Below are positions 9,781 through 58,691 of a DNA stretch of 64,000 bases, piece after piece. This DNA comes from Erythrobacter sp. (GTDB lineage: Bacteria > Pseudomonadota > Alphaproteobacteria > Sphingomonadales > Sphingomonadaceae). A program made the position numbers and the translations under genes. The DNA is taken from contig JAHEAV010000017.1 of assembly GCA_024642565.1 (NCBI GenBank), positions 1-64,000 on the forward strand, written 5' to 3'. Under the pieces are notes generated by a model. It saw only the letters and a list, made by a program, of their open reading frames with translations, ran no database searches and was not told where the DNA came from. How positions within the stretch are numbered: the stretch's first letter is position 1; every line of letters begins with the position of its first letter.

Positions 9781-9873
9781 CCCGCCTAGATGCCGTTCAT
9801 GCCTTACGAAGTCGAGCCTCATTGCACCAAGTCTCTCTCGACTTCCCATCAGCCGACCGGCATTAACGGCAGG

Positions 9874-42723: not shown

Positions 42724-42882
42724 CGTCCCCACCGCTCTAAAGTACCCCCATGGGCACAATAGAGTTACTGCAGCGAAGTACAATTAGGTTAAGTATCGGC
42801 CGTGCAAGCGCTAGCTCTACAGCGAAAGTGGCGACTGCGAATGCCCTTCTACCTGGCCATAGCATTTCACAACATGGTGTTT

Positions 42883-42899
42883 ATGTCTTTCGGTGTCAT
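42883..42899 (+). promoter_or_regulatory. Putative LacI-family operator, copy 1 (MFS gene)
   Basis: ATGTCTTTCGGTGTCAT. It is identical to copies at 49496 and 54848 except for positions 6-8. The outer bases ATG-x-C / G-x-CAT are symmetric, and the right half GGTGTCAT has the CGGTG core common in LacI-family sites. It lies 82 bases before the MFS start. Confidence 0.8.
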
Positions 42900-42981: not shown

Positions 42982-44241
42982 ATGAACAACACGAGCAGTG
43001 CCACGATTGTGGCGGAAGACGGAGCCGCGCGCGCAAGGCGCTTGCTGGTCGCGCTGCTGTTTTTCGGTACGATTATCAATTACATTGATCGTCAGGTGCT
43101 CTCGTTGCTCAAACCGACAATATCGGCGGAGTATGGCTGGGGCGATGCTGAGTTCGCCCATTTCGCTTCCGCTAGCCAGCTCGCCGCGGCCGCAGCCCTT
43201 CTATTTGTCGGCTGGATCATCGACCGGTTCGGGGTCAAGCTCGCTTATGGCGCGGCGGTTGCGCTCTGGTCGGTTGCGGGTATGGCGCACGCGGTGGCTG
43301 CGACGGTAACTCAATTCGTTACCGCACGGGTCGCGCTGGTCGCGTTCGAATCCGTCAATACCCCGGCGGCTGTCAAGGCGGCGGCTGAGTTCCTGCCGAT
43401 CAGGCAACGGGCAATGGCGCTCGGCATCGTCAATACCGCACCAAACCTCGGCAACATCCTCGCCCCGCTCACAGTTGTCCCGTTCGCCGTCGCGTTCGGA
43501 TGGAAGACCGCGTTCGTCGTGACCGGTTTGCTGGGCTTTATATGGCTTGGCTTTTGGATTGTCGGTGTGCGCCGCCTTCAGCCACTGCCGCGCGCTGCGG
43601 CAGTTGAAGGTGCGCCAGTACGCTCGTCGTACAGCGAGGCTCTAAGCGATCGGAAGACCTGGGCAATCGCAGGAGCGAAAGCAATCACCGACATGTTCTG
43701 GTGGTTCTTCACCTTCTGGCTACCAGACCTGTTTCACAAGATTTTTCACCTTTCGCAGTCCGAGCTAGTTGGCCCAACTGCGCTTGCCTTTGCGATGGCG
43801 GCTCTTGGAGCGCTTACCGCAGGCAAGCTCTTTGGTGTGCTGCTTGGAAAGGGGCGCTCGGTCAATGCTGCCCGCAAGACCGGGATGCTGCTCTACGCAG
43901 TCGTGATCCTACCGATCCCGTTCGCGCTGACGGTTGACAGCGCCTGGACTGCGGCGGCGATCATCGGCCTAGGCCTTTTCGCGCACCAAGGATTCGGAAC
44001 GAACATCTTCGGCTTTGCTGCCGACGCGGTGCCAGCGCGCCGTGTGGCGACGGTCATGGCGATCGGCGCAATTGCCGGCAACATCGCAGGTTTTGGCATT
44101 CAGGAGGCCACCGGAGCGCTGCTGACCGCAGGTTTGGGCTATGCCCCGCTATTCTGGTTTGCGTCAGTAGCCTACCTTATCGCGCTCGCTTGGGTTCACC
44201 TGCTGGTACCCCGCATCGTAGCTGAGGACGATGCAGTCTGA
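42982..44241 (+). CDS. MFS permease of the sulfoquinovose regulon
   Basis: The 419-residue protein has twelve membrane segments and the hexuronate/ACS-transporter marks FFGTIINYIDRQVLSLLKP in helix 1 and FVTARVALVAFESVNTPAAVKAAAEFLP around helix 4-5. It probably takes an acidic sugar across the inner membrane. A GGGAG site precedes the ATG. A copy of the operator shared with the sulfoquinovosidase operon lies upstream, so sulfoquinovose or sulfoquinovosyl glycerol is the likely cargo. Cargo and regulation are inferences; the family is clear. It is divergent from the TPR regulator and faces the desaturase fusion gene. Confidence 0.85.
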   Translation: MNNTSSATIVAEDGAARARRLLVALLFFGTIINYIDRQVLSLLKPTISAEYGWGDAEFAHFASASQLAAAAALLFVGWIIDRFGVKLAYGAAVALWSVAGMAHAVAATVTQFVTARVALVAFESVNTPAAVKAAAEFLPIRQRAMALGIVNTAPNLGNILAPLTVVPFAVAFGWKTAFVVTGLLGFIWLGFWIVGVRRLQPLPRAAAVEGAPVRSSYSEALSDRKTWAIAGAKAITDMFWWFFTFWLPDLFHKIFHLSQSELVGPTALAFAMAALGALTAGKLFGVLLGKGRSVNAARKTGMLLYAVVILPIPFALTVDSAWTAAAIIGLGLFAHQGFGTNIFGFAADAVPARRVATVMAIGAIAGNIAGFGIQEATGALLTAGLGYAPLFWFASVAYLIALAWVHLLVPRIVAEDDAV

Positions 44242-44460: not shown

Positions 44461-46728
44461 CTAAAACTGATCGAAAGACACCTGATCGTCTTCGACGTTC
44501 AATTCTGCCAGCATTTGCCTGCAAGCAGCAATCATCGCAGGCGGACCGCAAAGATAGAATTCGATCGACTGCGGGTTCGGATGACCAGCAAGATAGCGTG
44601 ACCGAACAAGGTCATGGATCATCCCGGTTTGTCCAGTCCAATGATCTCCCGCAGATGGTTCCGACAGTGCGAGGTCAAAGCTGAAATTTGCATGCTCTTC
44701 AGCGATCGCTTTGAACGTATCGACATAAAACAGCTCGCTTACAGAACGGGCCCCGTACCAGAAACTCACTTTGCGCTGCGTCTTTTCATTTTGGAATAAG
44801 TGCAGGATATGCGCCCGCAATGGCGCCATGCCGGCACCGCCGCCGATATAGACCATTTCCCTCTTGGTGGGCCTTATATGAAAGTCGCCGAAAGGTCCGG
44901 TTGCGGATACTTCGTCGCCCGGTTTGAGGTTGAACATATAGCTTGAGCCGATACCGGGCGGATGATCGCCGGTCTTTGGAGGCACCGCGATACGAATGTT
45001 AAACAACAGGTGGGGGTCGTTTAGCGTATTGCTTGCAACAGAATAATTATTTTTCTGTCCCTCGACCTCATTGTCAACGCTAAGGTCTAGCAAACCTGCT
45101 GTCTCCCAGGCACTCTTAAACGGCTCAGCTATATCAAATTGCGAGAACCTGAGGCCGGTGTAAGTTGGGATGTGAAACTTCAGATAATCTCCCGGCCGTA
45201 GGTCAGCCATGGCGGCGCCATCAATCAGTTCGAGAGCCAATTCCTTGATATAGGTTGCGACGTTGCGGTTGCTGACTACCCGCAATCGCATTACCGATTC
45301 CTGCACTACCGCGCCGCCAAGGGGCTGGGTCAGGTTAATCCAAACAGTGTCATCTACTTTCTTGATCGGATAGGTCCGCAATCCCTGGCAAATTGGCGAT
45401 CGTGCGGGTGATCCATCCTTTAGATTGAAACGACCGTTATGCTTGGGACATTCGATTTCATCCCCGCGGATAAATCCCTGACTTAAATGCGTGTTGCCAT
45501 GCGTGCACACGCCATCGGTAGCATAAAGCTGTCCCTTTGCCGTGAGATAGACTGCGTAGGTCCGGCGATCATGGTCAAATCGCAACACACCTTCGCAAGC
45601 AAGTTCAGCGCTCTGGCAGACATCTATCCAGCCGTCTGGGTCAGGCGGTGTATTGCTCCGGAAAATTCGCTCTTCCTGATGCGGACTCGATTTCGGGAGT
45701 TCGCGCCGAATGAAATAGTCAGGCTCATGGCGCTGACGCAATACCGCCGGCAGCAGTTCGCGCCACGCCGAATAAATAGAGGGATAGGGAGTTGGGCAAT
45801 AAGGTCGCAACACTTCATGAAGCTTGGGCAGCGCGTGATAGGGCACCAGCGGGAACATATGGTGTTCCAGATGATAGTTCATGTTCCAATAGATGAAGCG
45901 GCTTATCGGATTCATGTAAACCGTACGGCTGTTCAATCGGTGGTCCAGGACATTTTCTGCCAAGCCTGCATGTTGCGGCGTATTATGTATGACCATCAGC
46001 CAATTGCCGAATACGTGCGGCACGATGACAAGTAATATAGGTAGCCAGCTGCTGGTAAGGTATGCCGCAACCACGACAGAGAAATTGATAGCCAGAATGA
46101 TCCGGGCGTTTCTGATAATCTTGGGAAAGTCCATCTCGGGAACGAACGAGCGTTCATCATCTCCGATCCGGCCCATCGCATGATTGACCAGCTTAGGATA
46201 ATAAATCCGGTACACCCCAATGGCCCAAATCGAGAGGATCAGCTTGCGAAGTCGTGGCGGGCGCGGGATCTGGATTTCGGGATCCCTGCCCACTATGATC
46301 GTGTCGCTGTGATGACGGTTGTGACTCCATCGCCAGACGACTGACTCTCGCATGACCATGAATGATGAAATTTCATAGAGGGCCACGTTCATCCAGTCGC
46401 TCGCGAACGGGGTGCCGTGGCTGCATTCGTGCCAACGCGAGTCGGATGCCGTGGCATAGAACACGCAATATACGAGGTAAGGCAAGGCAGCATACCAATT
46501 GCCCCAAAATAGAATCGTGGCCAAGCCGGTGCCTGCAAGTATCGCAAACCACAAGGCTGTATCACGAATGGCAGGTCCGTTGCTGCGCTGCATAAGGGCG
46601 CGTCGGATATCTGATCCAATCGGTGGCTCGAACCAGTCTGCTTCCGCCAGACCAAGTTCGATTGCCTTACCGGCATTGGGTCCCGTCAAGGTATAATCGC
46701 GGGGCATGGCATTGCCGCCGTCAGTCAT
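44461..46728 (-). CDS. Fatty acid desaturase-Rieske-NqrF-type reductase fusion oxygenase
   Basis: The 755-residue protein joins three domains. First is a membrane di-iron desaturase/hydroxylase (about 50-340) with His boxes HECSH (100-104), HNRHH (136-140) and HLEHH (286-290), plus HNTPQH (248-253). Next is a Rieske [2Fe-2S] domain with CTH (Cys408, His410) and CPKH (Cys427, His430). Last is a FAD/NADH reductase (about 475-755) very like the C-terminal part of NqrF, with NYSVAS, GGGAGMAP, FWYGARS and CGPP. It should therefore be a self-contained NADH-driven membrane oxygenase. Its substrate is unknown. The start is uncertain (ATG 46728, ATG 46707 or TTG 46785). It lies downstream of the TonB receptor gene of the sulfoquinovose regulon. 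Confidence 0.88.
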   Translation of the reverse strand: MTDGGNAMPRDYTLTGPNAGKAIELGLAEADWFEPPIGSDIRRALMQRSNGPAIRDTALWFAILAGTGLATILFWGNWYAALPYLVYCVFYATASDSRWHECSHGTPFASDWMNVALYEISSFMVMRESVVWRWSHNRHHSDTIIVGRDPEIQIPRPPRLRKLILSIWAIGVYRIYYPKLVNHAMGRIGDDERSFVPEMDFPKIIRNARIILAINFSVVVAAYLTSSWLPILLVIVPHVFGNWLMVIHNTPQHAGLAENVLDHRLNSRTVYMNPISRFIYWNMNYHLEHHMFPLVPYHALPKLHEVLRPYCPTPYPSIYSAWRELLPAVLRQRHEPDYFIRRELPKSSPHQEERIFRSNTPPDPDGWIDVCQSAELACEGVLRFDHDRRTYAVYLTAKGQLYATDGVCTHGNTHLSQGFIRGDEIECPKHNGRFNLKDGSPARSPICQGLRTYPIKKVDDTVWINLTQPLGGAVVQESVMRLRVVSNRNVATYIKELALELIDGAAMADLRPGDYLKFHIPTYTGLRFSQFDIAEPFKSAWETAGLLDLSVDNEVEGQKNNYSVASNTLNDPHLLFNIRIAVPPKTGDHPPGIGSSYMFNLKPGDEVSATGPFGDFHIRPTKREMVYIGGGAGMAPLRAHILHLFQNEKTQRKVSFWYGARSVSELFYVDTFKAIAEEHANFSFDLALSEPSAGDHWTGQTGMIHDLVRSRYLAGHPNPQSIEFYLCGPPAMIAACRQMLAELNVEDDQVSFDQF

Positions 46729-47037
46729 TTGGGGTGGCCAATTTAGAAAATTCCGCACCGGGTAAATGAGGGCCCCATCCGGCAACGGACATTACCGATG
46801 AAATCCAAAGCGCATAGATCGTCATATTGCCCTCTTACGAATGCAGGTCGACAAAGCCATTACTGGCCGCATTTTGATCTGGCTGGCCAAAGGTGGTCGT
46901 TTGGGCTGGTATTGGGTGGCTCTCCATCTGCGCCTGGTCCATTCGGGCCAGGCGCAGATGGAAGCGCTAGAGAGACTGATCAACCTCGCTGCCAGAACGC
47001 AGAGTCCAAAGCTCCCCTACCATCCATAGCACGACCT
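46729..47037. other. Non-coding stretch between receptor and fusion oxygenase genes
   Basis: These 309 bases hold a strong hairpin (46924-46961) and possible alternative starts of the fusion gene (TTG 46785). I see no copy of the shared 17-bp operator and no credible small gene. Transcription of the fusion gene may come by read-through from the receptor gene. Confidence 0.5.
46924..46961 (-). terminator. 14-bp stem-loop after the TonB receptor gene
   Basis: CCATCTGCGCCTGG and CCAGGCGCAGATGG form a perfect 14-bp stem with a 10-base loop, 77 bases past the receptor stop. No T tract follows on either strand, so it may be an attenuating or mRNA-protecting hairpin rather than a full terminator. 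Confidence 0.6.
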
Positions 47038-49395
47038 CTATTGGATCTTGGCTCGCAAGGTCACGCCGAAGTAACGATCCGCATCACGAGGAATGTGCAG
47101 CCGCTGTCCGTTGCTGGTGTTAAGCAGGACATAGCTCGTATCACCGATATTCCGCACCAAGAAGGTTAGGCGATAGTTATCGTCAAGATCCGAAAACCCG
47201 ATGCTTGCGTTCCAGATACCATAACTGTCGATTGGCCCGCCTTTGCCCAGATCCGAAAATTGTTTGTCGGTCCAGTTGTAGCTTGTGTTTAGATAGATTT
47301 TCGCCTTGGCGCCGATGCTCTCAAGCGAGCTGTCGTAGCCAGTACCAAGCGCAATGTTCCATTTGGGCGCCAACGGTAGCGGCGTCCCATTCCGTGCGTC
47401 AGGAGCATTCGTCAGCGGGTTAGGATTGAACTTACGAACCTTGGCATCTGCATATGCAACATTAGCATTTATGTTCCATCCCTCGATCGGATTGAACAGT
47501 GCGTCGACTTCAAATCCCTTGGTCCGAACCGTTCCGGCATTTCTAAGGTTGGTAACAAGCGCGCCATTGAGAACGACGAAGTTGTTCGCCTGGTAACCCT
47601 TATAGTCAGCGAGGAAGCCGGCTATGTTGAGCTGGATGCGACGATCGGCAAACATCGACTTGATACCGTATTCGTAAGCATCCGAGGTTTCTTCATCGAT
47701 TGGTGAAGAATTGTCCGGCCGCGTATGGTTGAAGAAAATATTGAACGCCGGCCCTTTGTAACCTCGGGTGTAGCTCGCATAGGTCATCACATCGTTGGCA
47801 ATGTCATACTGCAAAACAGCTTTGCCCGAGAAGTTGGAGTTGGATAGCGATCCAGTAGAGGTATTCGTACCGTTCCCGCCGGCGCTGACCAGGCCACCCG
47901 CTGGCTTGGCACTGATACCTGGCCCGCTTGCTGGCAGGCCGGTGGTGGCATTTACCCCAGGCGCACGGAAGTGGGTGTAGGATACACTGTCATGTGTCCA
48001 GCGTATGCCACCGGTCAACCGCAGTGCATCGGTGAAACGATATGTGGCCTGTCCGAACAGTGCATAATTTTCGACATCGACGTTGCTGATCGAAGTCGCC
48101 GTCGGGAAAATCGTATTAACCAGGTCAGTCAGATTGCACGGACGTCCGCCGGTCAAAGGATCGACCGGCAAGGTCGAGGTAGCGCACGAGATGTCATCGC
48201 GGGTCTGCGTTTGGAAGTTTTTCGATTTCCAGTAAAATCCGCCGATTTGATATGTCAGCGCCTTGGTCTGGTCGGATGCGAGGCGCAGCTCCATCGAATA
48301 TTGCTTGGTCCGGTCCTCGGTGCCTGGATCATGCAATTCCACCGTTCCGACCAGAGCCCTCGGCAGATAGTCACCTTCACGAACCTCGGTGTTTTTGTAA
48401 TTGCGGTACCCGGTGATCGCGGTGAGTGTATGATCGCCTAAGACGTCGAAATCGCCTTGCGCGGTCAGGCCCCACTGCCGCCCGAACGAGCGGGAGATCA
48501 AGTTGTGGTTCACATAGCGTTGGTCCTCACCAAGCGCCACGCCGCCGGGCAGATTGAGTTCGGCATCAAGAACAGCGCCCCGCGAAACACCGGTTACTTC
48601 AGCACAACAATCGTTATCTGCTTTAAAGTAGTCGGCAATAATGCGGAAACGAGCCGAGTCGCTCGCATCCCAGTCTACAAGCGCACGGATGCCGTAATTC
48701 TTGTAACCGTTTACGTCTGTTTTGTAATAAACGTTGTGAATATTCCCGTCGTACGAACCGCGGGACATCGTCAATCGACCCGTCAGCCCTTCGCCAAGAG
48801 GACCAGAGAGTGAGAGTTTGGCACGGTATTCGCTGCCTTCGTAGGCACCCAGGTTGAGCTCGGCCTGAAACTCGTCTGTCCCGCCTTTGGAAACGATATT
48901 GAGGAGGCCCGCCGACGCATTTTTGCCGAACAATGTGCCTTGCGGGCCACGCAGGACTTCAATCCGTTCAACATCGAGGAAATCGGTGAATGCCTGGCCC
49001 GATCGGCTCAGCACGATGCCGTCGACCACGGTCGAGACGCTAGGCTCCGCGGCGATCGAGAAGCTGATCGTGCCGACGCCGCGCAGGAACATTGCGTTGT
49101 TCGACATCGACGTGCCTTTGCGGAACGTGAGCGAAGGAACAATATCACCCAGATTTTCCAAGCTGGTGGTGCCTGACGCAGCAAGTGCAGCGCCGGTAAC
49201 AGCCGTCACGGCAAGCGGCACGTCCTGGATGTTCTGCTCGACCTTCTGAGCTGTTACGATGATCTCCTGGATCCCGCCACGGCCTGAGTCGGCTGCCTCC
49301 TCCTGCGCCAAGGCTGGCGAAGTTGCCAGTAGGGCAAATGCACTCACCGAAAAAGCGAGCATATTCCGATTTTTATGCCGAGAAACTTCCATCAA
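47038..49395 (-). CDS. TonB-dependent receptor of the sulfoquinovose regulon
   Basis: The 785-residue outer-membrane receptor has a signal peptide (cleavage after ALA), a TonB-box region QEIIVTAQK and a plug with VPLAVTAVTG, VDGIVLSRSG and VEVLRGPQGTLFGKNASAG. A large barrel ends in FGVTLRAKIQ. It is of the broad sphingomonad type used for sugars and aromatic compounds rather than the siderophore plug type seen at 21830. AGGGAGAAG precedes the ATG. It is divergent from the sulfoquinovosidase operon, with the operator between the two starts, so import of sulfoquinovosyl glycerol through the outer membrane is a fair inference. Confidence 0.9.
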   Translation of the reverse strand: MMEVSRHKNRNMLAFSVSAFALLATSPALAQEEAADSGRGGIQEIIVTAQKVEQNIQDVPLAVTAVTGAALAASGTTSLENLGDIVPSLTFRKGTSMSNNAMFLRGVGTISFSIAAEPSVSTVVDGIVLSRSGQAFTDFLDVERIEVLRGPQGTLFGKNASAGLLNIVSKGGTDEFQAELNLGAYEGSEYRAKLSLSGPLGEGLTGRLTMSRGSYDGNIHNVYYKTDVNGYKNYGIRALVDWDASDSARFRIIADYFKADNDCCAEVTGVSRGAVLDAELNLPGGVALGEDQRYVNHNLISRSFGRQWGLTAQGDFDVLGDHTLTAITGYRNYKNTEVREGDYLPRALVGTVELHDPGTEDRTKQYSMELRLASDQTKALTYQIGGFYWKSKNFQTQTRDDISCATSTLPVDPLTGGRPCNLTDLVNTIFPTATSISNVDVENYALFGQATYRFTDALRLTGGIRWTHDSVSYTHFRAPGVNATTGLPASGPGISAKPAGGLVSAGGNGTNTSTGSLSNSNFSGKAVLQYDIANDVMTYASYTRGYKGPAFNIFFNHTRPDNSSPIDEETSDAYEYGIKSMFADRRIQLNIAGFLADYKGYQANNFVVLNGALVTNLRNAGTVRTKGFEVDALFNPIEGWNINANVAYADAKVRKFNPNPLTNAPDARNGTPLPLAPKWNIALGTGYDSSLESIGAKAKIYLNTSYNWTDKQFSDLGKGGPIDSYGIWNASIGFSDLDDNYRLTFLVRNIGDTSYVLLNTSNGQRLHIPRDADRYFGVTLRAKIQ

Positions 49396-49495: not shown

Positions 49496-49512
49496 ATGTC
49501 AAGCGGTGTCAT
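49496..49512 (+). promoter_or_regulatory. Putative LacI-family operator, copy 2, overlapping a -10 box
   Basis: ATGTCAAGCGGTGTCAT runs straight into TATAAT (49512-49517), a good -10 element for the rightward operon. A repressor bound here would block it. The site is also about 100 bases before the divergent receptor gene, so one site could control both. It is the most symmetric of the three copies. Confidence 0.82.
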
Positions 49513-49575
49513 ATAATAGTTGACCTAAGTGTGGTTTCTAGCTCATCACATCGCATCAAGAGAGGAGTTCACCGC

Positions 49576-51582
49576 GTGGAATTGCGGATTGTGGCTAATC
49601 CAGATGGCTTTGAGCTTGAATTTGGCGAGACAACTGTTTTGCGCCATACCCAGTTATGTCCTGCGGTAGCCATGGCGGTCGGCAACCCTTGTGTCGAGAT
49701 GTACCGTGGCAATTTTCAGATCGAAGACGAGCCATCTTGCCCAATAGCTCCGACCGCGTGGCGCAAATGCGACGGCGGCCTTGAGCTGCTCGGCGCTGGA
49801 AAGCCTGTTGCCCGCATCGTAGTCTCCGGCAATGCCTTCACCGTACAGGCGCTCGATTCCTCGTTCGACCGGCTATGGGTGCGCTTGTATGCTGAAGCTG
49901 GCGAGACCGTGTGGGGCGGCGGCGAGCAAATGAGCTATCTTACGCTCAATGGCCGAGCATTCCCAATGTGGACCAGCGAGCCAGGTGTTGGGCGCGACAA
50001 GGCTAGCGAATTGACCCAGTTGATGGACGAAACCGCGAAAGCTGGCGGCGATTACTGGAACACCAATTACCCGCAACCGACTTTTCTCACTTCAAGATGG
50101 CTGGCAGTACATCTGGACGAAACTTGTTACAGCGTTCTCGATTTCCGGGATAGCGCCCATCACGAAGTAGAGGTGTGGGCCAACTCGGCACGGTTCGAGT
50201 TGTTTGTCGATTCGCATCCGCGCGGTCTCGTTTCACAGCTTTCCTCGCGCTTTGGCCGCCAGCCCGAGTTGCCTGAATGGGCAACAGGCGGCGCAATCAT
50301 CGGCATCAAGTCAGGGGCCAGCAGCTTCGACCGAATAGAGGATTTCATCAATGCGGGTGCCGCGGTGTCGGGCCTCTGGTGTGAAGACTGGGCCGGCGTT
50401 CGCGAAACCAGCTTTGGCCGCAGGTTATTTTGGGATTGGCAGCATGGTGAACGCAGCAAGGCCCGTTACCCTGATCTGCCACGACGGATTGCCGATCTAA
50501 ACGCACGCGGGATCCGCTTTCTAGCGTATGCAAACCCCTATCTTGCAGTTGACGGCGACTTGTTTGAAGAAGTTCGCACAGCCGGTCATTTTTGCCTCAG
50601 GCAAAACAGCGACGAAGTGTACTTAGTAGATTTTGGCGAGTTCGATTGCGGGGTATTAGACTTCACTCGTGAGGAGACCAGAGCCTGGTTTGCTGAGCGC
50701 ATTCTAGGCCAAGAAATGCTTGACATCGGAATCGCTGGCTGGATGGCCGATTTCGGCGAATATCTGCCTACCGACCTGCAACTTTCAGATGGATCTGATC
50801 CAATGGAAGCTCATAATCAGTGGCCTGTACTATGGGCCGAAGTCAATGCTCAAGCGCTAGCCAGCCGTGACCGAACCGGTGATGCATTATTCTTCATGCG
50901 CGCTGGATTCTCGGGCGTTCAGAAGCACTGCCCACTGCTTTGGGCAGGCGACCAATGCGTCGATTTCACCCGCCATGACGGTATCGGCACAGTGATCACT
51001 GCAGCTCTCTCCGCAGGACTTGTTGGCAATGCCTTCAGCCATTCCGATTGCGGCGGCTATACGTCTATGCACGGTCATGTTCGAACCGCCGAACTCCTGC
51101 AACGCTGGTGCGAGATGGCCGCCTTTGCGCCAGTCATGCGCACTCACGAAGGTAATCGGCCGGATGACAATCTGCAATACGACTCCACTCCTGAACTGCT
51201 GACCTGCTTCGCGCGCTGGAGCCGGGTCCATGCCCGGCTGGCCCCCTATGTTCGCACGCTCTGCAGTGAGGCGGTTGCGATCGGTCTACCCGCGCAACGT
51301 CCGCTATTTCTCCATTACCCTGACGACCCCGCTTTGTTTGCAGTGCAAGACCAATTTATGTACGGGTCCGATCTATTGGTCGCTCCGGTGATTGAGGAGG
51401 GAGCGCAACACCGACAGGTCGTCCTACCTGGAAACGTATCGTGGAACCATGTGTGGACTGGGGAGCAATATGCCCCCGGGCGTTACGAAATTTCCGCTCC
51501 ATTGGGCTACCCACCAGTTTTTTACCGGCTGGACAGTCCGTATGCGGATTTGTTCGCGGACCTTAGGCGGGAATTTGAATGA
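49576..51582 (+). CDS. smoI: GH31 sulfoquinovosidase (SmoI/YihQ type)
   Basis: This 668-residue cytosolic enzyme hydrolyses alpha-sulfoquinovosides, such as sulfoquinovosyl glycerol, to sulfoquinovose. It aligns along its length with E. coli YihQ (WGGGEQMSYLTLNGRAFPMWTSE, GRQPELPEW). The catalytic nucleophile is Asp392 in WMADFGEY and the acid/base Asp459 in WAGDQ. Residues at the YihQ sulfonate and sugar-binding positions are Lys245, Glu270, Arg283, Trp286 and Tyr495, the K-E-R-W-Y set of Agrobacterium-type enzymes rather than the Q-Q-R-W-Y set of YihQ. GTG 49576 is the start because AGAGGAG lies eight bases before it. Its stop overlaps the LacI gene. Confidence 0.92.
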   Translation: MELRIVANPDGFELEFGETTVLRHTQLCPAVAMAVGNPCVEMYRGNFQIEDEPSCPIAPTAWRKCDGGLELLGAGKPVARIVVSGNAFTVQALDSSFDRLWVRLYAEAGETVWGGGEQMSYLTLNGRAFPMWTSEPGVGRDKASELTQLMDETAKAGGDYWNTNYPQPTFLTSRWLAVHLDETCYSVLDFRDSAHHEVEVWANSARFELFVDSHPRGLVSQLSSRFGRQPELPEWATGGAIIGIKSGASSFDRIEDFINAGAAVSGLWCEDWAGVRETSFGRRLFWDWQHGERSKARYPDLPRRIADLNARGIRFLAYANPYLAVDGDLFEEVRTAGHFCLRQNSDEVYLVDFGEFDCGVLDFTREETRAWFAERILGQEMLDIGIAGWMADFGEYLPTDLQLSDGSDPMEAHNQWPVLWAEVNAQALASRDRTGDALFFMRAGFSGVQKHCPLLWAGDQCVDFTRHDGIGTVITAALSAGLVGNAFSHSDCGGYTSMHGHVRTAELLQRWCEMAAFAPVMRTHEGNRPDDNLQYDSTPELLTCFARWSRVHARLAPYVRTLCSEAVAIGLPAQRPLFLHYPDDPALFAVQDQFMYGSDLLVAPVIEEGAQHRQVVLPGNVSWNHVWTGEQYAPGRYEISAPLGYPPVFYRLDSPYADLFADLRREFE

Positions 51583-52595
51583 TGGGTGAGCGTGCCACAA
51601 TTCGTGATGTCGCCGCGCGGGCAAACGTTGCGGTCAAGACTGTGAGCCGAGTGCTCAACGGCCACCCTTACGTCAAGGAAGAGACACGCGTGCGCGTCGA
51701 AGCGGCGATGAAGTCACTCGATTTCCGTCCCAGCGTGGCGGCACGGATCCTGTCGGGGGCGAAATCAAACCAGATCGCCCTTATTTACGACAATCACAGC
51801 CCCTATTACATGTTTCAGATCCAGAAGGGCTGTTGGGACGAATGTCACGCGCGCGGCATTCGCTTGCTCGCGCAGCCGGTGGATGTCGAAGATCCGAACG
51901 TTGGGGAGCAAGTGCGTGGCCTGATCACGGAAACGCACGTCGATGGTATTATCCTGTCTTCACCGGTGACCGACTGCGAAGCAGTGCTTAAAATGCTCGA
52001 TCAACTCGATCTTCCTTTCGTGCGTATCTCACCAGGTACCAACCACGCTTTGACCAGTTCGGTCTTCATGGACGATGCGCAGGCCGCTGACGATATGACC
52101 ACGCATCTCATCAACGTCGGCCATCGGCGGATTGGGTTTATCAGAGGCCACAAGAGCCACATGGCAAGCGAGGAAAGGCTTTTCGGGTATCGCCGGGCGC
52201 TTGACAGGGCAGGCATCGCCTTTGAACCAGGGCTGGTGTGCGAAGGTGAATTCGACTTCGATAGCGGCCTGCGCGCTGCGAGGATCCTTCTTGACCTTAC
52301 TTATCCGCCCACCGCCATTTTCGCTTCTAATGACGACATGGCCGCCGGGGTGCTAGCAGTCGCGCATGATCGTGGGATCGATCTACCGAAAGAACTGTCT
52401 GTTGCCGGTTTTGACGATACCACATTGTCGCGGACCGTCTGGCCACCACTCACAACCATCCACCAGCCAATGGCCGAGCTAGCTCGAACCGCTACCGAAA
52501 TTCTTATTATCGGCGGTGAGATTAACCATTGCCGCTTGCCACACCAGTTGATTGAGCGTGCGTCTGTCGCGCCTCCAAATAGGGAATATCAATGA
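51579..52595 (+). CDS. LacI-family transcription regulator of the sulfoquinovose regulon
   Basis: The 338-residue protein has the LacI helix-turn-helix and hinge (ATIRDVAARANVAVKTVSRVLNG, residues 6-28, then ARILSGAKSNQIAL) and a periplasmic-binding-like sensor domain (SSPVTDCE, GHRRIGFIRG, IFASNDDMAAGVL, GFDDTTLSRTVWPPLTTIHQP). It probably represses until a sulfoquinovose-derived ligand binds. It overlaps the sulfoquinovosidase stop by 4 bases and the reductase start by 4 bases (ATGA), so it is co-translated with the enzymes. Three copies of a 17-bp palindrome-like site nearby are its likely operators. A second ATG lies at 51582. Confidence 0.9.
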   Translation: MMGERATIRDVAARANVAVKTVSRVLNGHPYVKEETRVRVEAAMKSLDFRPSVAARILSGAKSNQIALIYDNHSPYYMFQIQKGCWDECHARGIRLLAQPVDVEDPNVGEQVRGLITETHVDGIILSSPVTDCEAVLKMLDQLDLPFVRISPGTNHALTSSVFMDDAQAADDMTTHLINVGHRRIGFIRGHKSHMASEERLFGYRRALDRAGIAFEPGLVCEGEFDFDSGLRAARILLDLTYPPTAIFASNDDMAAGVLAVAHDRGIDLPKELSVAGFDDTTLSRTVWPPLTTIHQPMAELARTATEILIIGGEINHCRLPHQLIERASVAPPNREYQ

Positions 52596-53506
52596 ACGCA
52601 TCGCTTAAAGTTCCTCGGGGTCGCCTACTCGGCTCAAGCGGGATCGCGATTTCGCCGATTGCCTGGGGTATGTGGCGGTTCGCCGAAGATGGCCGCAGCC
52701 CTGCCGAAGCGGCGCGCCTAGTCCATGCCGCGCTTGATGCAGGAATTACGCTGCTGGATACGGCGGACATCTATGGCTTTAATGGTCACGGCGGGTTCGG
52801 CGAAGCGGAATCGCTTTTAGGTAAGGTACTTAAGCTCGAACCAGAGTTGCGCGAGCGGATGGTATTGGCATCCAAAGGCGGGATCACGCCGCCGCTGCCC
52901 TATAACCAGTCAGCGTCGTATCTTGCTTCTGCGATCGATGCCTCACTGCGCCGGCTCAACTGTGCAACGATTGATCTTTACCAGATACATCGCCCGGACA
53001 TCCTCACCCATCCTCAGGAAGTGGCCCGCACACTGGATGATGCGGTGGCGGCCGGCAAGATCCGCACAATCGGTGCGTCAAACTTCACCACTGCGCAGAT
53101 CGAAGCCCTCAACCATTTTCTGGGCCACGAGCTGGTCGCGACTCAACCCGAGATAAGCCCGCTTAGGATTACTTGTTTTGAGAACGGCGAACTCGATCAA
53201 GCAATGCGGCTTGGCTTGACTCCATTCGCATGGTCGCCGTTGGGCGGAGGCGCGTTACTTGCGCCTAAATCCGCTCGTGATCGGGCGGTAGCCAGCCAGT
53301 TGGACCAAATTGCCAAAGAGCAGGGCGTAAGTCGGTCAGTCGCTGCCTATGGCTGGCTGATGGCGCACCCGGCGGGGATCGTCCCAATTATCGGATCGCA
53401 GAATACGGCGCGCATTGCCGAGGGAGCGCAGGCCCTGACAATGCAATGGACGCGGCAAGACTGGTACGCTGTATTGGTTGCCGCCAGGGGAGAGGAGCTA
53501 CCATAA
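52592..53506 (+). CDS. smoB: Aldo/keto reductase (SmoB-like 6-oxoglucose reductase)
   Basis: The 304-residue TIM-barrel NAD(P)H reductase has the AKR tetrad Asp56 and Tyr61 (DTADIYG), Lys95 (LASKGG) and His133 (YQIHRPD), and a C-terminal coenzyme-binding stretch (IPIIGSQNTARI, in part VPIIGS). In the sulfoquinovose monooxygenase pathway of Agrobacterium an AKR (SmoB) reduces 6-oxoglucose to glucose. The place of this gene, between the regulator and the SsuD-like monooxygenase and coupled to both, supports the same role. The function is inferred from context; the family is certain. Its stop shares a base with the next start (TAATG). Confidence 0.82.
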   Translation: MNASLKVPRGRLLGSSGIAISPIAWGMWRFAEDGRSPAEAARLVHAALDAGITLLDTADIYGFNGHGGFGEAESLLGKVLKLEPELRERMVLASKGGITPPLPYNQSASYLASAIDASLRRLNCATIDLYQIHRPDILTHPQEVARTLDDAVAAGKIRTIGASNFTTAQIEALNHFLGHELVATQPEISPLRITCFENGELDQAMRLGLTPFAWSPLGGGALLAPKSARDRAVASQLDQIAKEQGVSRSVAAYGWLMAHPAGIVPIIGSQNTARIAEGAQALTMQWTRQDWYAVLVAARGEELP

Positions 53507-54597
53507 TGTCCGAAGCACAACAATGTGAGATCGCTTGGTTTTCCGCGCTTTGCGACGACGATTACGAGTTCCTCGGCGTGCCTGACCCTTATCTCAAGTC
53601 GAGTTGGGAGCATTGCCGCAACATAGTGTTGAGAGCCGAAGAGGGCGGATTTGATAACATTCTACTGCCTTCAGGCTACGAGCTCGGCCTAGACACTACC
53701 GTATTTGCCGCGGCGGTGGCGACGCAAATCCAGCGGATCAAGTTACTGTGGGCGACACGCATTGGTGAGGACTGGCCACCACAGCTTGCTCGCCGCATCG
53801 CCACGCTCGACCGCATCCTCGGCCCCGACGCTCGCGGGACCGCCGGTCGACTCAACGTCAACATCATATCATCCGACATGCCTGGACAAAAGCTCGAAAG
53901 TGCTCCGCGTTACCGTCGCGCGACCGAGGTTATGAAGATCGTCCGCACTTTGTTAAACGGCCAGCACTTGAGCCACAAAGGCGAGTTCTACGACCTTGAA
54001 CTTGACCCTGCGCGTATTACCACAATCAGCGGCAAATGCCCTCCATTCTACTTTGGCGGCCTGAGCCACGAAGCTCGCGAATGCGCCGCCGAGGCTTGCG
54101 ACGTCTACCTGATGTGGCCTGACACGATGGATAAAGTCCGAGAGAACATCGCCGATCTTACCGAACGCGCTGCCAAGTATGGTCGGAAATTGAAGTTCGG
54201 ATATCGCGCCCACGTAATCGTACGCGAGACTGAAGAGGAGGCGCGTCAGTACGCTGATCACCTCCTGTCAAAGTTGGACGAAGAGGCCGGAAAGGCAATC
54301 CGAGAAAAGTCTCTTGATGCAAAGAACTACGGCGTCCAACGACAGTCCGAGCTGCGAGGAGCATCAGGTGGCGATGGCTTCGTCGAGGACAACCTATGGA
54401 CTGGAATCGGTCGCGCGCGTTCGGGCTGTGGGGCGGCAATTGTCGGCACACCAGACCAAGTGCTCGCGAAGCTGCGGGCTTATCAGGCCGAAGGAATCGA
54501 GGCGTTCATCCTTTCCGGCTATCCGCACATCAACGAGTGCGACATGTTCGCACGCCACGTTCTGCCGCATATTCAGCATGGACCACTCAACCTCTAA
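53506..54597 (+). CDS. smoC: SsuD-like flavin-dependent sulfonate monooxygenase (SmoC-like)
   Basis: The 363-residue luciferase-like protein aligns with alkanesulfonate monooxygenase SsuD over its length: ILLPSGYE, RRIATLDRI, PPFYFGGLS, FGYRAHVIVRET with Arg234 and His236, the late Arg in GRARSGCG and the C-terminal SGYPH. SsuD-type enzymes use FMNH2 and O2 to cleave C-S bonds, releasing sulfite and an aldehyde. With a sulfoquinovosidase and an AKR in the same operon, the substrate is most likely sulfoquinovose, giving 6-oxoglucose. No flavin reductase is in this operon; one lies two genes on, at 56463. GGGGAGAGGAG precedes the start. Confidence 0.85.
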   Translation: MSEAQQCEIAWFSALCDDDYEFLGVPDPYLKSSWEHCRNIVLRAEEGGFDNILLPSGYELGLDTTVFAAAVATQIQRIKLLWATRIGEDWPPQLARRIATLDRILGPDARGTAGRLNVNIISSDMPGQKLESAPRYRRATEVMKIVRTLLNGQHLSHKGEFYDLELDPARITTISGKCPPFYFGGLSHEARECAAEACDVYLMWPDTMDKVRENIADLTERAAKYGRKLKFGYRAHVIVRETEEEARQYADHLLSKLDEEAGKAIREKSLDAKNYGVQRQSELRGASGGDGFVEDNLWTGIGRARSGCGAAIVGTPDQVLAKLRAYQAEGIEAFILSGYPHINECDMFARHVLPHIQHGPLNL

Positions 54598-54936
54598 GCC
54601 AGTGACGCAGCCGAGCGGTCTTAACCTTGCGCAATAGACCAGTTGTCGCTTTCTGACGACTATCGCAATAATCGGATCTCTCGTTTTTGGTGGGTCCTGC
54701 AATGCAAGGGCTGAAGTTGCGCTGAAGGTCATTTTGCCAGCGGTACACTGGTTGTGCCAGCTCGCCAGATTGTTCGACCTTGTCCGGTTTTTCCGGCTTC
54801 AAGAAATTACTTGCGCCGCTTGGTCGCTTTGGCTTAGTGCGGAAGGTATGACACCGCAGGACATAATGCAAGCGGTTGAGCCGCACCGCTCCGCTATTTG
54901 GCGAAGGTGCAGATTCATGCCAAACGGCGATCCGAC
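54598..54936. other. Non-coding stretch between the two sulfoquinovose operons
   Basis: These 339 bases hold operator copy 3 (54848-54864). The first 200 bases are relatively T-rich with no coding pattern I can support, no clear terminator and no recognised RNA. Part could be a remnant left by rearrangement. Confidence 0.5.
54848..54864 (-). promoter_or_regulatory. Putative LacI-family operator, copy 3 (glpD operon)
   Basis: Read on the minus strand it is ATGTCCTGCGGTGTCAT, the same 14 fixed bases as copies 1 and 2. It lies 72 bases before the glpD start. CATAAT overlaps its end on the plus strand and could serve as a weak -10 box. Confidence 0.8.
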
Positions 54937-56466
54937 ATGAACGCCAGTCCTTCCCCAAGCCACCAATCGGATACTTACGATTTGATCGTGGTGGGCGGCG
55001 GGGTGAACGGGGCCGGCGTGGCGCGCGATGCTGCCGGTCGCGGCGCCAAGGTATTGTTGCTTGAAAAAGGCGACCTGGCGCAGGGCACTTCCTCTGCATC
55101 AACCAAGCTTATCCATGGCGGCCTGCGGTACCTTGAACATTACGAGTTCGCTTTGGTGCGTGAAGCTCTGGCCGAGCGGGAGACATTGTGGCGCATTGCC
55201 CCGCATATCATCTGGCCGCTGCGTTTCATTTTGCCTTATCGCAAAGGTTTACGACCCCGTTGGATGCTGCGCCTTGGCTTGTTCCTGTATGACCATATCG
55301 GCGGACGTATCAAACTGCCGGCCACAAAATCCGTCGATTTGCGCAAGCACCCGGCCGGCAAACCGCTCAAACCATTCCTCACCAAGGGTTTCGAATATTC
55401 CGATGGCTGGGTCGATGATGCGCGTTTGGTAATATTGAACGCGCGTGATGCCGCCAATCGAGGGGCCGATATCCGGACAAGGATGGAAGTCAGGCGATTG
55501 GCCCGAGACGAAGCCGGCTGGACTGTCTCCGCATTGGATGCATTTGGAACCATGCATCACTTCAGCAGTCGCTGCGTGGTCAATGCCGCTGGTCCATCCG
55601 TACTGGATGTACTTGGCCGGTCTGAAACGGCGACCAAGCGAAAAATGCGTTTGGTGCGGGGTTCGCATATCGTTGTGAGGCGGCTGTTCGAACATCCTTT
55701 TGCCTATTTCTTCCAGTTGCCCGACGGCCGGATTTTCTTTGCCATTCCTTACGAGCGGGACTTTACCCTGATCGGCACCACGGATCAGGACCATCACGGA
55801 AGCGTGTTTGAAGCCCGCGCCAGTCAGGAAGAAATCGCCTATCTCTGCGAAGGTGCCGGCCAGTATTTCGAACACCCGATCACGCCAGCCGATGTGGTTT
55901 GGAGCTATTCGGGTGTACGGCCCTTGCTCGACGACGGGTCGGGCCGCCCCGAAGCCGCAACGCGCGGCTATGAGTTTGAGCTGGATTATGGCGAGACTGG
56001 CCATCCCATGCTGTCCATACTGGGCGGCAAGATCACCAGTTACCGCCATGTTGCCGAAGCCGTCGTGGATAAGCTTGCGCCATTATGCCCCGGGATCGCC
56101 GGTGGGCATTGGACAGGTTCGGCGCCCCTTCCTGGCGGTGATTTCCCCATGGATGGCGCCGACCAGTTACGTGCCGATTATGCTGGCCGATATTCCTTCC
56201 TATCCACGGATGAGATCGACAGAATCGTAAAAGCCTATGGTACCGATGCCCGGCTCTGGCTGGGTGCGGCGCAGTCCCGACGCGATCTGGGTGCCGATTT
56301 CGGCCACGGATTAAGTCAGTCCGAAGTCGATTATCTGGTGTCCCGCGAATGGGCGCAGACGGCAGATGACATATTATGGCGGCGCAGCAAATTGGGCCTC
56401 CATTTCAAAGCGGAGCAGGTTTCTGCGCTGCAAGATTACCTCGAGCAGAAGGTGTTTACCGCATGA
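54937..56466 (+). CDS. glpD: Glycerol-3-phosphate dehydrogenase (aerobic, FAD)
   Basis: GlpD oxidises sn-glycerol 3-phosphate to dihydroxyacetone phosphate and passes electrons to quinone at the inner membrane. The 509-residue protein has the FAD motif VVGGGVNGAGVARDAAGRG (about 18-36), the signature SSASTKLIHGGLRYLEHYEFALVREAL (read in pieces) and WVDDARLVILNARDA. The ATG at 54937 starts just before the FAD fold. An operator copy lies upstream, and the gene is the head of a four-gene coupled operon. This fits disposal of glycerol freed from sulfoquinovosyl glycerol; glpK itself is at 8311. Confidence 0.95.
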   Translation: MNASPSPSHQSDTYDLIVVGGGVNGAGVARDAAGRGAKVLLLEKGDLAQGTSSASTKLIHGGLRYLEHYEFALVREALAERETLWRIAPHIIWPLRFILPYRKGLRPRWMLRLGLFLYDHIGGRIKLPATKSVDLRKHPAGKPLKPFLTKGFEYSDGWVDDARLVILNARDAANRGADIRTRMEVRRLARDEAGWTVSALDAFGTMHHFSSRCVVNAAGPSVLDVLGRSETATKRKMRLVRGSHIVVRRLFEHPFAYFFQLPDGRIFFAIPYERDFTLIGTTDQDHHGSVFEARASQEEIAYLCEGAGQYFEHPITPADVVWSYSGVRPLLDDGSGRPEAATRGYEFELDYGETGHPMLSILGGKITSYRHVAEAVVDKLAPLCPGIAGGHWTGSAPLPGGDFPMDGADQLRADYAGRYSFLSTDEIDRIVKAYGTDARLWLGAAQSRRDLGADFGHGLSQSEVDYLVSREWAQTADDILWRRSKLGLHFKAEQVSALQDYLEQKVFTA

Positions 56467-57017
56467 CCCGTATCGTAGCCCTTGGCGGTACGCCCCGCCC
56501 CGGATCCTCGACCGAGAAAGTTCTCGCCGTTGCTGCGCGCGCCGCGGAAGCGCAGGGGGCGAGCATCACCTATTTTGACGGAGCGTATATGAGCTCTCTC
56601 CCTTTCTATGGGGGCCCCGGACATAGCAAGGAAGCGGGCCTCGAAATGGTCAATGCGTTGCGGGAAGCCGATGGAATTCTGATTGCCTCCCCCGGATATC
56701 ACGGCAGCATTTCAGGACTGGTCAAGAATGCTCTCGACTATATTGAAGATCTTTCGACCGACGATCGCCCCTATTTGCATGGCCGCCCTGTCGGTCTCAT
56801 CGCAACTTCGTTCGGGCATCAGGCCGCAATGAGCACATTGTTGACGCTGCGCAGTATCACTCATGCCTTGCGCGGATGGCCGACGCCGATTGGCGCAGCC
56901 ATTCGTACGACCCAGGAAACCTTTGACGAAAATGGCGAGATTCGCGACGCGGGCGCCCGCATCCAACTAGAGCTTGTAGGGCAACAAGTGCTAAGCATGG
57001 CCGGGAAGTTCCAATGA
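56463..57017 (+). CDS. NADPH-dependent FMN reductase family protein
   Basis: The 184-residue flavodoxin-fold protein has the phosphate loop GGTPRPGSSTEK near the N-terminus and ASPGYHGSISGLVKNALDYIE, the marks of the PF03358 family that includes SsuE, MsuE and quinone reductases. The start overlaps the glpD stop (ATGA). In a regulon with an SsuD-like monooxygenase that lacks its own reductase, supply of FMNH2 is the natural role, but a quinone reductase is also possible. Its own end overlaps the RibB-like gene by 4 bases. Confidence 0.8.
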   Translation: MTRIVALGGTPRPGSSTEKVLAVAARAAEAQGASITYFDGAYMSSLPFYGGPGHSKEAGLEMVNALREADGILIASPGYHGSISGLVKNALDYIEDLSTDDRPYLHGRPVGLIATSFGHQAAMSTLLTLRSITHALRGWPTPIGAAIRTTQETFDENGEIRDAGARIQLELVGQQVLSMAGKFQ

Positions 57018-57625
57018 GTAGCGCCGCCAACCAAGACACTTCCTATGACGGGATCAGCGCACATCTGACGCAGGGGGGGATTGTGATCCTGGCCGGCGAT
57101 GCGTTGCGCGATGGCGACCTCGATTTTGCCATGGCGGCCAGCAAGGTTACCCCGCAGGCGATTAACTTCATGGCACGATATGGCCGCGGATTGATCTGTT
57201 TAGGCCTTACTCGGGAACGCGCATGGGAGTTGGGCATCACGGCGCAGGGCAGCGACAAGACTGGTGATAGCGGCCGCCCATTTGGCGTCTCGATCGAAGC
57301 CAGACACGGCGTCGACACTGGAATTTCCGCGCATGACCGGGCGCATACCATTGCTGTTGCAATGGCCCCCGATGCGCGCCCAGCCGACCTTGTCAGCCCC
57401 GGCCATGTTTTTCCTCTGATCGCCAATCCAGGCGGTATCGCAGCTCGTAAATCAACGCTCGAGGCCGGAATTGCCCTGTGCCGCAAATTGGGCCTCGGTG
57501 ATGGCGTTGTCCTGTGCGCGATCATGCGCGACGATGGGACAATGGCACGCGTCGCAGATATGCATGAATTTGCGCGCGAGCATGCGACCCCAATCATCGA
57601 TATCAGCGCAATCACCGATGGCTGA
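57014..57625 (+). CDS. RibB-like protein (3,4-dihydroxy-2-butanone 4-phosphate synthase family)
   Basis: The 203-residue protein follows RibB along its length: FMARYGRGLICLGLT, GVDTGISAHDRAHTI, PGHVFPLIANPGGI, STLEAG (Glu150), DDGTMAR and the His131 of PGHVF. However, the N-terminal acidic loop, normally DxExRExEGD, is shortened to DALRDGD (29-35). It loses the Arg-Glu-x-Glu part that binds magnesium and substrate in known enzymes. It may be a low-activity paralogue, or work differently. Since riboflavin precursors feed FMN, its place between a flavin reductase and a sulfite exporter may be meaningful. Overlaps on both sides show coupling. Confidence 0.72.
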   Translation: MSSAANQDTSYDGISAHLTQGGIVILAGDALRDGDLDFAMAASKVTPQAINFMARYGRGLICLGLTRERAWELGITAQGSDKTGDSGRPFGVSIEARHGVDTGISAHDRAHTIAVAMAPDARPADLVSPGHVFPLIANPGGIAARKSTLEAGIALCRKLGLGDGVVLCAIMRDDGTMARVADMHEFAREHATPIIDISAITDG

Positions 57626-58691
57626 CCGCCCTGCCCCCCCGCCGATAGGCGCTGATCTCTATGGTGAACTCTATCTGGCTGACGCCATGGGCGGGACGCA
57701 GCCTCGTTTGCAAATCGCCAGCTACCTCCCGGGCGTCGCTGTTGTGGCCATTGCGGCGGCGGCGGCGACATGGCTGTCGGAACATTACGGCCTGCCAGTA
57801 ATCCTTGCCGGTCTTCTGATCGGTCTTTCGCTCAATTTTATCTCGGCCGATGTTCGAGTGACACCGGGCTTCGATCTTTGTAGCACCGGCTTCCTGCGCT
57901 GGGGTATCGTATTGCTCGGCAGCCAGATCACCGCGATGCAAATTTCCGATCTGGGTCTCACCCCCTTTCTCGCGCTGGTTACGATCATGGCGCTGGTGAT
58001 CCTGTCCGGGGTCGTGGCCGCCCGGCTGTTCGGACAGTCGAAATATATCGGCCTGCTTGCTGGCGGAGCGACAGCCATCTGCGGTGCATCGGCGGCCCTC
58101 GCGATCTATGCCCTGATCGGCAAGGACCGTTTGGAACAGCATCGCTTTACGTTCACGCTGGTCGGCATCTCTCTGGCGAGCGCGCTGGCCATGTCATCCT
58201 ATCCGGTTTTGGCGCATCAGTTTCACTTCAGCGATCGGCAGGCAGGCTTCTTGATGGGCGCTGCCATTCATGATGTTGCGCAATCGTTGGGGGGCGGGTT
58301 CAGCTTCTCGCGCGGAGCGGGCGAAGTGGCCACAATCGTAAAGCTGACCCGTGTGGCGCTTCTTGCCCCGGTCGTGGCGCTGATCGGGCTGGCAGTCGGC
58401 AATGCGCAAGGTGCACGGCAGAGCGGATGGACCAAGCTGAAACTGCCCTGGTTCATCATCGCCTTTTTCGCTGTGGTGGCGCTGAATTCACTGATCGCTG
58501 TACCTGACGCGATCAAGGAATATGGTTTGATTGCCTCAAAAGGACTGCTGCTGTTTGCCGTGGTAGCCACAGCTATGCGATCACGCCTCGATGCCTTGCT
58601 GTCGGAAGGTTGGCGCGGGCTTGTGCCGGTTTTCGCGGCAACGATTGTATCCTTCTTCGCGTCATTCCTGTTCGCCTGGCAATTTCTCTAG
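57618..58691 (+). CDS. YeiH-family putative sulfate/sulfite exporter
   Basis: The 357-residue membrane protein has about ten helices. The family (PF03601) blocks GLPVILAGLLIGLSLNF, RWGIVLLGSQIT, LAGGATAICGASAALAI and GAAIHDVAQSLGGG are visible. Relatives in sulfonate-degrading bacteria are proposed to expel sulfite or sulfate. Release of sulfite by the SsuD-like monooxygenase would require such a pump, and the gene closes the glpD operon (8-base overlap with the RibB-like gene). Direction and ion are inferred. The 40-residue N-terminal lead is cytosolic. It converges on the cytochrome bd operon with overlapping ends. Confidence 0.85.
   Translation: MADRPAPPPIGADLYGELYLADAMGGTQPRLQIASYLPGVAVVAIAAAAATWLSEHYGLPVILAGLLIGLSLNFISADVRVTPGFDLCSTGFLRWGIVLLGSQITAMQISDLGLTPFLALVTIMALVILSGVVAARLFGQSKYIGLLAGGATAICGASAALAIYALIGKDRLEQHRFTFTLVGISLASALAMSSYPVLAHQFHFSDRQAGFLMGAAIHDVAQSLGGGFSFSRGAGEVATIVKLTRVALLAPVVALIGLAVGNAQGARQSGWTKLKLPWFIIAFFAVVALNSLIAVPDAIKEYGLIASKGLLLFAVVATAMRSRLDALLSEGWRGLVPVFAATIVSFFASFLFAWQFL

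Follow-up and report, generated by a model that had tools for sequence, protein, structure and literature searches.

Is the GH31 glycoside hydrolase encoded at this locus a sulfoquinovosidase (SQase) and, if so, which pathway would it serve? We addressed this question in a window of 64,000 nucleotides (the whole stretch of DNA that was analysed), which belongs to a 2.49-Mb draft genome of Erythrobacter sp. composed of 49 contigs. Sulfoquinovose (SQ) is presented in published summaries as a very large organosulfur pool, of which about 10 billion tons are made yearly. A preliminary description of this DNA had proposed that one frame encodes an SQase of the type found in Agrobacterium, on the basis of five residues (K-E-R-W-Y) and a catalytic pair of Asp:

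49576-51582, + strand: GH31 sulfoquinovosidase of the SmoI/YihQ type, with K245, E270, R283, W286 and Y495, and with D392 and D459

The frame is open over 668 residues and begins with GTG; another in-frame GTG further upstream, at 49531, is a possible alternative start. The GH31 catalytic domains PF01055 and PF21365 were both found above cut-off, and the NCBIfam equivalog for this protein, PRK10426, is labelled alpha-glucosidase. Among PDB sequences, the closest matches were the SQases of A. tumefaciens 5OHY and 5OHS (respectively, 823 and 821 bits), to which the protein is approximately 52% identical along almost its entire sequence, followed by 6PNR from E. rectale (681.5 bits), BmSQase 8R56 (677 bits) and YihQ of E. 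coli 5AED (594 bits).

All seven residues are present where the preliminary description had placed them, and the protein presents both the catalytic Asp pair and the sulfonate-site set (K-E plus R-W-Y). When aligned to 5OHY, the five residues K-E-R-W-Y are identical, with K, E, R and W at the same chain positions, which bears out their description as an Agrobacterium-type set. The A. tumefaciens enzyme (5OHS, 5OHY and 7OFX) shares with the protein of the window its GH31 family, these five residues and the catalytic Asp pair. The equivalences to YihQ were also recovered as described: in the alignment to 5AED, K245 lies opposite the Gln of GIQGG and E270 opposite the Gln of IWAQDW, and R, W and Y are identical. 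YihQ (5AED and 5OHT) belongs to the same GH31 subfamily and presents the same fold, but it has Q-Q where the window has K-E. These two positions are occupied by Gln in YihQ, 6PNR and 8R56 and by Lys and Glu in 5OHY (alignment to PDB sequences), and we therefore regard the K-E form as the Agrobacterium form. An earlier paper reportedly defined the K-E and Q-Q residue sets of SQases, which were matched here to PDB sequences only. In the open-licence literature, no paper among the matches listed mentioned KERWY together with sulfoquinovosidase. Chain position 455, which is mutated in the 5OHS D455N complex with nitrophenyl sulfoquinovoside, lies opposite D459, the proposed acid/base.

We further compared a predicted model of the protein (mean pLDDT of 82, built with 24 sequences) to known structures. 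The best match was 5OHY (Z of 43.2 over 643 residues, rmsd of 2.1), along with 5OHS (Z of 43.0); 7OFX was also among the top matches, the YihQ entries yielded Z values of 40.6-41.5 and the best non-SQase GH31 a Z of 31.4. The active-site loops 277-283, 457-468 and 496-501 present pLDDT values below 50, and the mapping of residues therefore relies on sequence alignment: the predicted model confirms the fold, not the placement of side chains.

The full K-E-R-W-D-D-Y set was found in the window and in all 80 related SQase loci. As a control, we collected GH31 loci from 118 genomes of the order; 30 loci were kept, 20 of which had an alignable frame (the other 10 were left unscored, being without a frame of more than 450 aa matching at E ≤ 1e-3). 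Eight of these 20 loci are SQase-like (at least 890 bits, the window counted among them) and all eight carry the full set. The other 12 are non-SQase GH31 proteins (63-118 bits), distant sequences that were placed by sequence alignment (mafft) rather than by structure, and K, E, R and Y are absent from all of them, the R column being a gap in 12/12. The tryptophan is kept in 11 of these 12 controls, as is the first Asp, and the second Asp is kept in all. Sequence matches, predicted fold and residue controls all agree and support the proposed sulfoquinovosidase, which is a well-understood type of enzyme; the protein would thus add a member to a characterised group.

Several genes around the SQase are relevant to its probable pathway:

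42982-44241, + strand: MFS carrier (family matches), probable inner-membrane importer, some 5 kb before the SQase gene
47038-49395, - strand: TonB-dependent receptor (family match), divergent from the SQase gene
51579-52595, + strand: LacI-family regulator (family matches), overlapping the end of the SQase gene by 4 bp
52592-53506, + strand: putative aldo-keto reductase of the SmoB/SquF type (6-dehydroglucose reductase), best PDB match 7BBY
53506-54597, + strand: putative FMNH2-dependent sulfoquinovose monooxygenase of the SmoC/SquD type, best PDB match 7OLF
54937-56466, + strand: GlpD-type glycerol-3-phosphate dehydrogenase (family matches)
56463-57017, + strand: NAD(P)H-dependent FMN reductase (PF03358)
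57014-57625, + strand: RibB-like paralog (DHBP-synthase fold) with an altered active-site loop, from fold and alignments
57618-58691, + strand: YeiH-like membrane protein (PF03601, 167 bits), possible sulfite exporter

The genes of the SQase, the LacI-type regulator, the aldo-keto reductase and the monooxygenase are consecutive, with overlaps of 1-4 bp, and so are those of GlpD, the FMN reductase, the RibB-like protein and the YeiH-like protein, with overlaps of 4-8 bp. The two groups are separated by a gap of 339 bp that holds a probable operator, which rules out a single overlapping operon of all eight genes. Family and position suggest roles in uptake for the TonB receptor and the MFS carrier and in export for the YeiH-like protein, which misses the NCBIfam YeiH cut-off (107 vs 232.6). 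The GlpD of the cluster was the sole match in its own genome when used as query. A single FGGY-family kinase was found in the genome and is interpreted, from its sequence, as GlpK; its gene also maps to the window, within 8311-10320 (- strand), about 45 kb from this GlpD.

Other nearby genes were considered and not retained as parts of the system. Between the MFS and TonB receptor genes, a single unusual protein (44461-46785, - strand) combines fatty-acid-desaturase, Rieske [2Fe-2S] and reductase NAD-binding domains; this fusion was rejected since it had a match in none of the 80 SQase loci, and at E ≤ 1e-150 it was found in only one of 298 family genomes, the source genome itself. A TPR-type gene (40576-42783, - strand) was left out because its matches were weak and limited to 3/80 loci (L014, L024 and L078), as were the cytochrome bd genes, for which CydB, the one subunit queried, matched 0/80 loci.

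In the PDB search, the luciferase-family monooxygenase matched 7OLF (368 bits), which we take to be SmoC, and 7OH2 (360 bits), far ahead of the next entry, 7JV3 (199.5 bits). The aldo-keto reductase matched 7BBY, presumably SmoB, and 7BBZ (184.5 bits), the next other protein being 7TWZ (144 bits). The molecule names of these PDB entries are generic. The neighborhood thus independently encodes SmoC-like and SmoB-like enzymes, evidence that the preliminary description had not used, and this strengthens the SQase reading. An alternative identity as an alpha-glucosidase or alpha-xylosidase of GH31 that only resembles SQases is very improbable: GH31 is a broad family and the NCBIfam label would fit such an enzyme, but YicI, a non-SQase GH31, scores only 154 bits relative to 823 for 5OHY, the four residues K, E, R and Y are missing from every non-SQase control, and SmoC-like and SmoB-like partners adjoin the gene.

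Recognition of a sulfo-ASMO cluster is described as requiring SmoC-type and SmoB-type genes within ten ORFs (PMC13372026); here the two genes are adjacent (52592-53506 and 53506-54597), and a flavin reductase (PF03358) that may serve the monooxygenase is present in the cluster. The pathway has been published for A. tumefaciens and Novosphingobium aromaticivorans, according to the account in PMC9594981, and is also covered in PMC12890257. The report in PMC13372026 further describes Novosphingobium as enriched in 13C-SQ heavy fractions and dominating a mangrove sample. The cluster of the window is a further sulfo-ASMO (sulfo-SMO) cluster of this published type. Alternatively, the SQase may be correctly identified while the cluster serves a different sulfosugar or a different SQ route, the monooxygenase having some other sulfonate as its substrate. 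In favor of this view, this enzyme shares only about half of its residues with the Agrobacterium-type protein, and its function is predicted; against it, 7OLF outscores SsuD-type enzymes by about 170 bits, the 7BBY-like reductase is adjacent and the pathway described for a sphingomonad is sulfo-ASMO (PMC9594981). We consider this alternative improbable, with only a small chance of being correct.

We therefore favor, with a probability of about 94%, an SQase that cleaves sulfoquinovosyl glycerol (SQGro) within a LacI-controlled sulfo-ASMO cluster including uptake, desulfonation and glycerol entry, a reading built on the observed homology, residues, synteny and conserved site. The predicted substrates, transport roles, pairing of regulator and site and direction of flow would be as follows. 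SQGro would be imported via the TonB receptor and then the MFS carrier, and split into SQ and glycerol by the SQase, a retaining alpha-sulfoquinovosidase that is probably cytosolic (no signal-like start was seen by eye). Asp392 would act as the nucleophile and Asp459 as the acid/base, with K245, E270, R283, W286 and Y495 lining the sulfonate end of the pocket. The flavin monooxygenase would convert SQ into 6-dehydroglucose and sulfite, the aldo-keto reductase would reduce 6-dehydroglucose to glucose, and glycerol would enter via glycerol kinase and GlpD. The LacI-type regulator, acting on the site TGTCWAGCGGTGTCA, would govern the gene set.

Known systems differ from this cluster in several respects. 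YihQ belongs to the sulfo-EMP pathway, not to a monooxygenase pathway. The A. tumefaciens locus (L079) carries ABC transporter genes, as read from the translations, and a PF01613 reductase, whereas the cluster of the window possesses a TonB receptor, an MFS carrier and a PF03358 reductase, which is of a different family from PF01613. The N. aromaticivorans cluster (SquD, SquF) is also from a sphingomonad and follows the route of a monooxygenase and an aldo-keto reductase; the description in PMC9594981 states that it lacks an SsuE-type reductase. In contrast to that published description, the cluster of the window includes an FMN reductase together with RibB-like and YeiH-like proteins.

We then analyzed the distribution of the cluster genes across the 80 SQase loci, counting any tblastn match at 1e-8 within a locus. 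The monooxygenase was matched in 62 loci, the TonB receptor in 61, the LacI regulator in 61 (a few of these being distant paralogs) and the MFS carrier in 45. In 55 of the 62 loci, the monooxygenase is at least 60% identical to that of the window; the seven others are rhizobial and their monooxygenase is about 50% (50-51%) identical. For the FMN reductase, the rhizobial loci L056, L058, L065, L067, L069, L075 and L079 gave no match at 1e-8. Among the 55 loci with a close monooxygenase, we found the TonB receptor in 55, the regulator in 54, the aldo-keto reductase in 54, the MFS carrier in 42, the YeiH-like protein in 32, GlpD in 27 and the FMN reductase in 21, some of these tallies being depressed by contig ends. 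Most of these loci present the order receptor, SQase, LacI, reductase and monooxygenase, with deviations in L051-L055 and L070. A monooxygenase match is absent from 18/80 loci. Five of them cover little sequence (L011, L022, L032, L037 and L049), but most others are long, as in Microvirga, where seven loci span about 22 kb each. The presence of such an SQase is therefore not sufficient to imply a sulfo-ASMO pathway.

Two side observations were made in these loci. In L059, L063, L066 and L076 the SQase is 57-59% identical to that of the window, yet the monooxygenase is 87-89% identical, which suggests that SQase genes were swapped within otherwise conserved clusters. Separately, the TonB receptors that hold similar places in the clusters are of two kinds, whose identity to that of the window is about 59-66% for one and about 36-43% for the other.

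The conserved loci allowed us to define a candidate regulatory site in the window:

49497-49511, + strand: conserved probable operator TGTCAAGCGGTGTCA, in the gap between the TonB receptor and the SQase, conserved in relatives
54849-54863, - strand: second probable operator, with 2 mismatches, located 73 bp upstream of GlpD
42884-42898, + strand: possible third operator, weak, with 3 mismatches, located 83 bp upstream of the MFS gene; by itself it does not reach significance

With up to two mismatches, the 15-bp site TGTCWAGCGGTGTCA precedes the SQase gene in the window and in 55/80 loci, and is absent from the other 25. Twelve of its 15 positions are invariant across the 55 loci and position 5 is A or T in relatives, these counts being drawn from sites preselected at ≤2 mismatches. 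The site was derived from a k-mer count: the 10-mer AGCGGTGTCA is present in 47 of 55 receptor-SQase gaps (the window and 54 loci), whereas the highest count in one shuffle was 3. A search of these 55 gaps for 16-bp palindromes (≤1 mismatch) yielded none in the window and few elsewhere, which were not shared. The 15 bases of the second operator recur before the MFS/YeiH genes in L002, L012 and L047, and additional copies of the operator were found in some loci before MFS/YeiH, MFS/FMN reductase or MFS/GlpD. The window alone contains three matches at ≤3 mismatches for 1.53 expected, which is not unusual, and the operator claim therefore rests on conservation in relatives. Binding of TGTCWAGCGGTGTCA by the LacI-type protein is suggested by their co-occurrence. 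Around the RibB-like gene, the operator was found in 1/23 short stretches from family loci (L176); these stop short of the SQase promoter and are thus hardly informative.

The RibB-like protein raises a separate question. It presents a DHBP-synthase fold (Foldseek E of 2.4e-21 to 6MNZ) and is 36-43% identical to the DHBP synthases RibB 6MNZ, 4P8E and 1G57; however, two elements of DHBP synthase, the RENEGD loop and the GHT within RxGHTE, are replaced throughout the RibB-like subfamily. We compared 39 RibB-like sequences (including the window; 33 are left at <97% mutual identity) to 30 canonical RibB sequences, i.e., the best 29 class matches kept, of 181 genomes with a match, and the separate canonical copy found in the same genome. 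In the Zymoseptoria DHBP synthase, E35 is described as binding both magnesium ions (PMC12268802); we located its counterpart by the R34-E35-D39 spacing, not by alignment. This position is Glu in 30/30 canonical RibB but in only one of 38 readable RibB-like members (L180), the others having Gly (25), Arg (9), Asp (the window), His and Gln (one each); L181, with Ser there, was not counted as its loop is out of register. In the window the RENEGD Glu is absent and Asp stands at position 33, where it might still bind metal.

Other changes are shared across the subfamily. Canonical D28, N34 and E35 are replaced by G, G and D in all 38 readable sequences, T88 (Thr in 30/30 canonical) by Arg and A89 by Pro in 39/39, and Arg is found at position 172 in 39/39 relative to 1/30 canonical. 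The RxGHTE segment reads RKSTLE in the window; its His (29/30 canonical) is Ala or Thr in 39/39 RibB-like sequences, and its Arg and Glu are kept in all of them. R32, C62, H131 (the metal-ligand His of PGH) and E150 are also kept in 39/39.

The occurrence of the RibB-like gene follows that of the monooxygenase. Among 298 family genomes, it was found in 24 and the monooxygenase in 77; 23 of the 24 carry both (Fisher value of 3.6e-14, kinship ignored), and the last one, 69% complete, has part of a monooxygenase at the end of a contig, slightly above the threshold. The FMN reductase adjoins the RibB-like gene in all 24 loci, window included. The RibB-like gene is missing from 54 of the 77 monooxygenase genomes at the threshold used, and it is therefore not essential to the pathway. 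The 80 SQase loci yielded 17 RibB matches, one of which (L052) is an ordinary RibBA, leaving 16 RibB-like genes; L066 was omitted from alignment A1 since its frame mismatches the family at the start, and 15/16 loci were used with the window. The gene is missing from 5 of the 21 loci with an FMN reductase. In 289 genomes of the class (few from the family), no other match exceeded the level of ordinary RibB (239 bits vs 321). On plasmids, four records were examined among the 25 listed of 299. In three, RibB is canonical and stands apart from any other gene of the cluster; in the fourth, from Novosphingobium humi (L208), the protein is of the altered type and its neighbors include the SQase, the receptor, GlpD, the FMN reductase, the MFS carrier and the YeiH-like protein, in a stretch that excludes the place of the monooxygenase. 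This last record is 1.06 Mb long and almost without annotation.

RibB tops up FMN in some lux operons, and the RibB-like protein may likewise be a working extra DHBP synthase supplying FMN for the monooxygenase. The kept fold, the constant adjacency of the FMN reductase, the conservation of R32, C62, H131 and E150, the Asp of the window, still a carboxylate at the metal-ligand position, and the Glu of L180 would all fit this role; the loss of that Glu in 37/38 readable members, the changes at D28/N34/E35 (38/38) and at the RxGHTE His (39/39) and the canonical copy already present in the genome argue against it, and we consider it unlikely. The view that we tentatively prefer is that the DHBP-synthase fold has been repurposed to serve SQ desulfonation instead of riboflavin synthesis; the protein could partner the FMN reductase and monooxygenase in flavin handling or act on a sugar intermediate. 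Because L180 keeps Glu and the window has Asp, we lowered our estimate for this repurposing from even odds to slightly below. In the open-licence literature, we found no paper mentioning sulfoquinovose together with dihydroxy-2-butanone.

The enzyme group and the pathway are already known, and the operator and the RibB-like protein go further; these two may interest specialists more than the SQase itself. Family matches would name the RibB-like protein a DHBP synthase despite its rebuilt active-site loop. The predicted operator would join receptor, carrier, enzymes and exporter into one regulon, and with this cluster an aerobic sphingomonad should be able to exploit the entire carbon of sulfoquinovose while releasing its sulfur.
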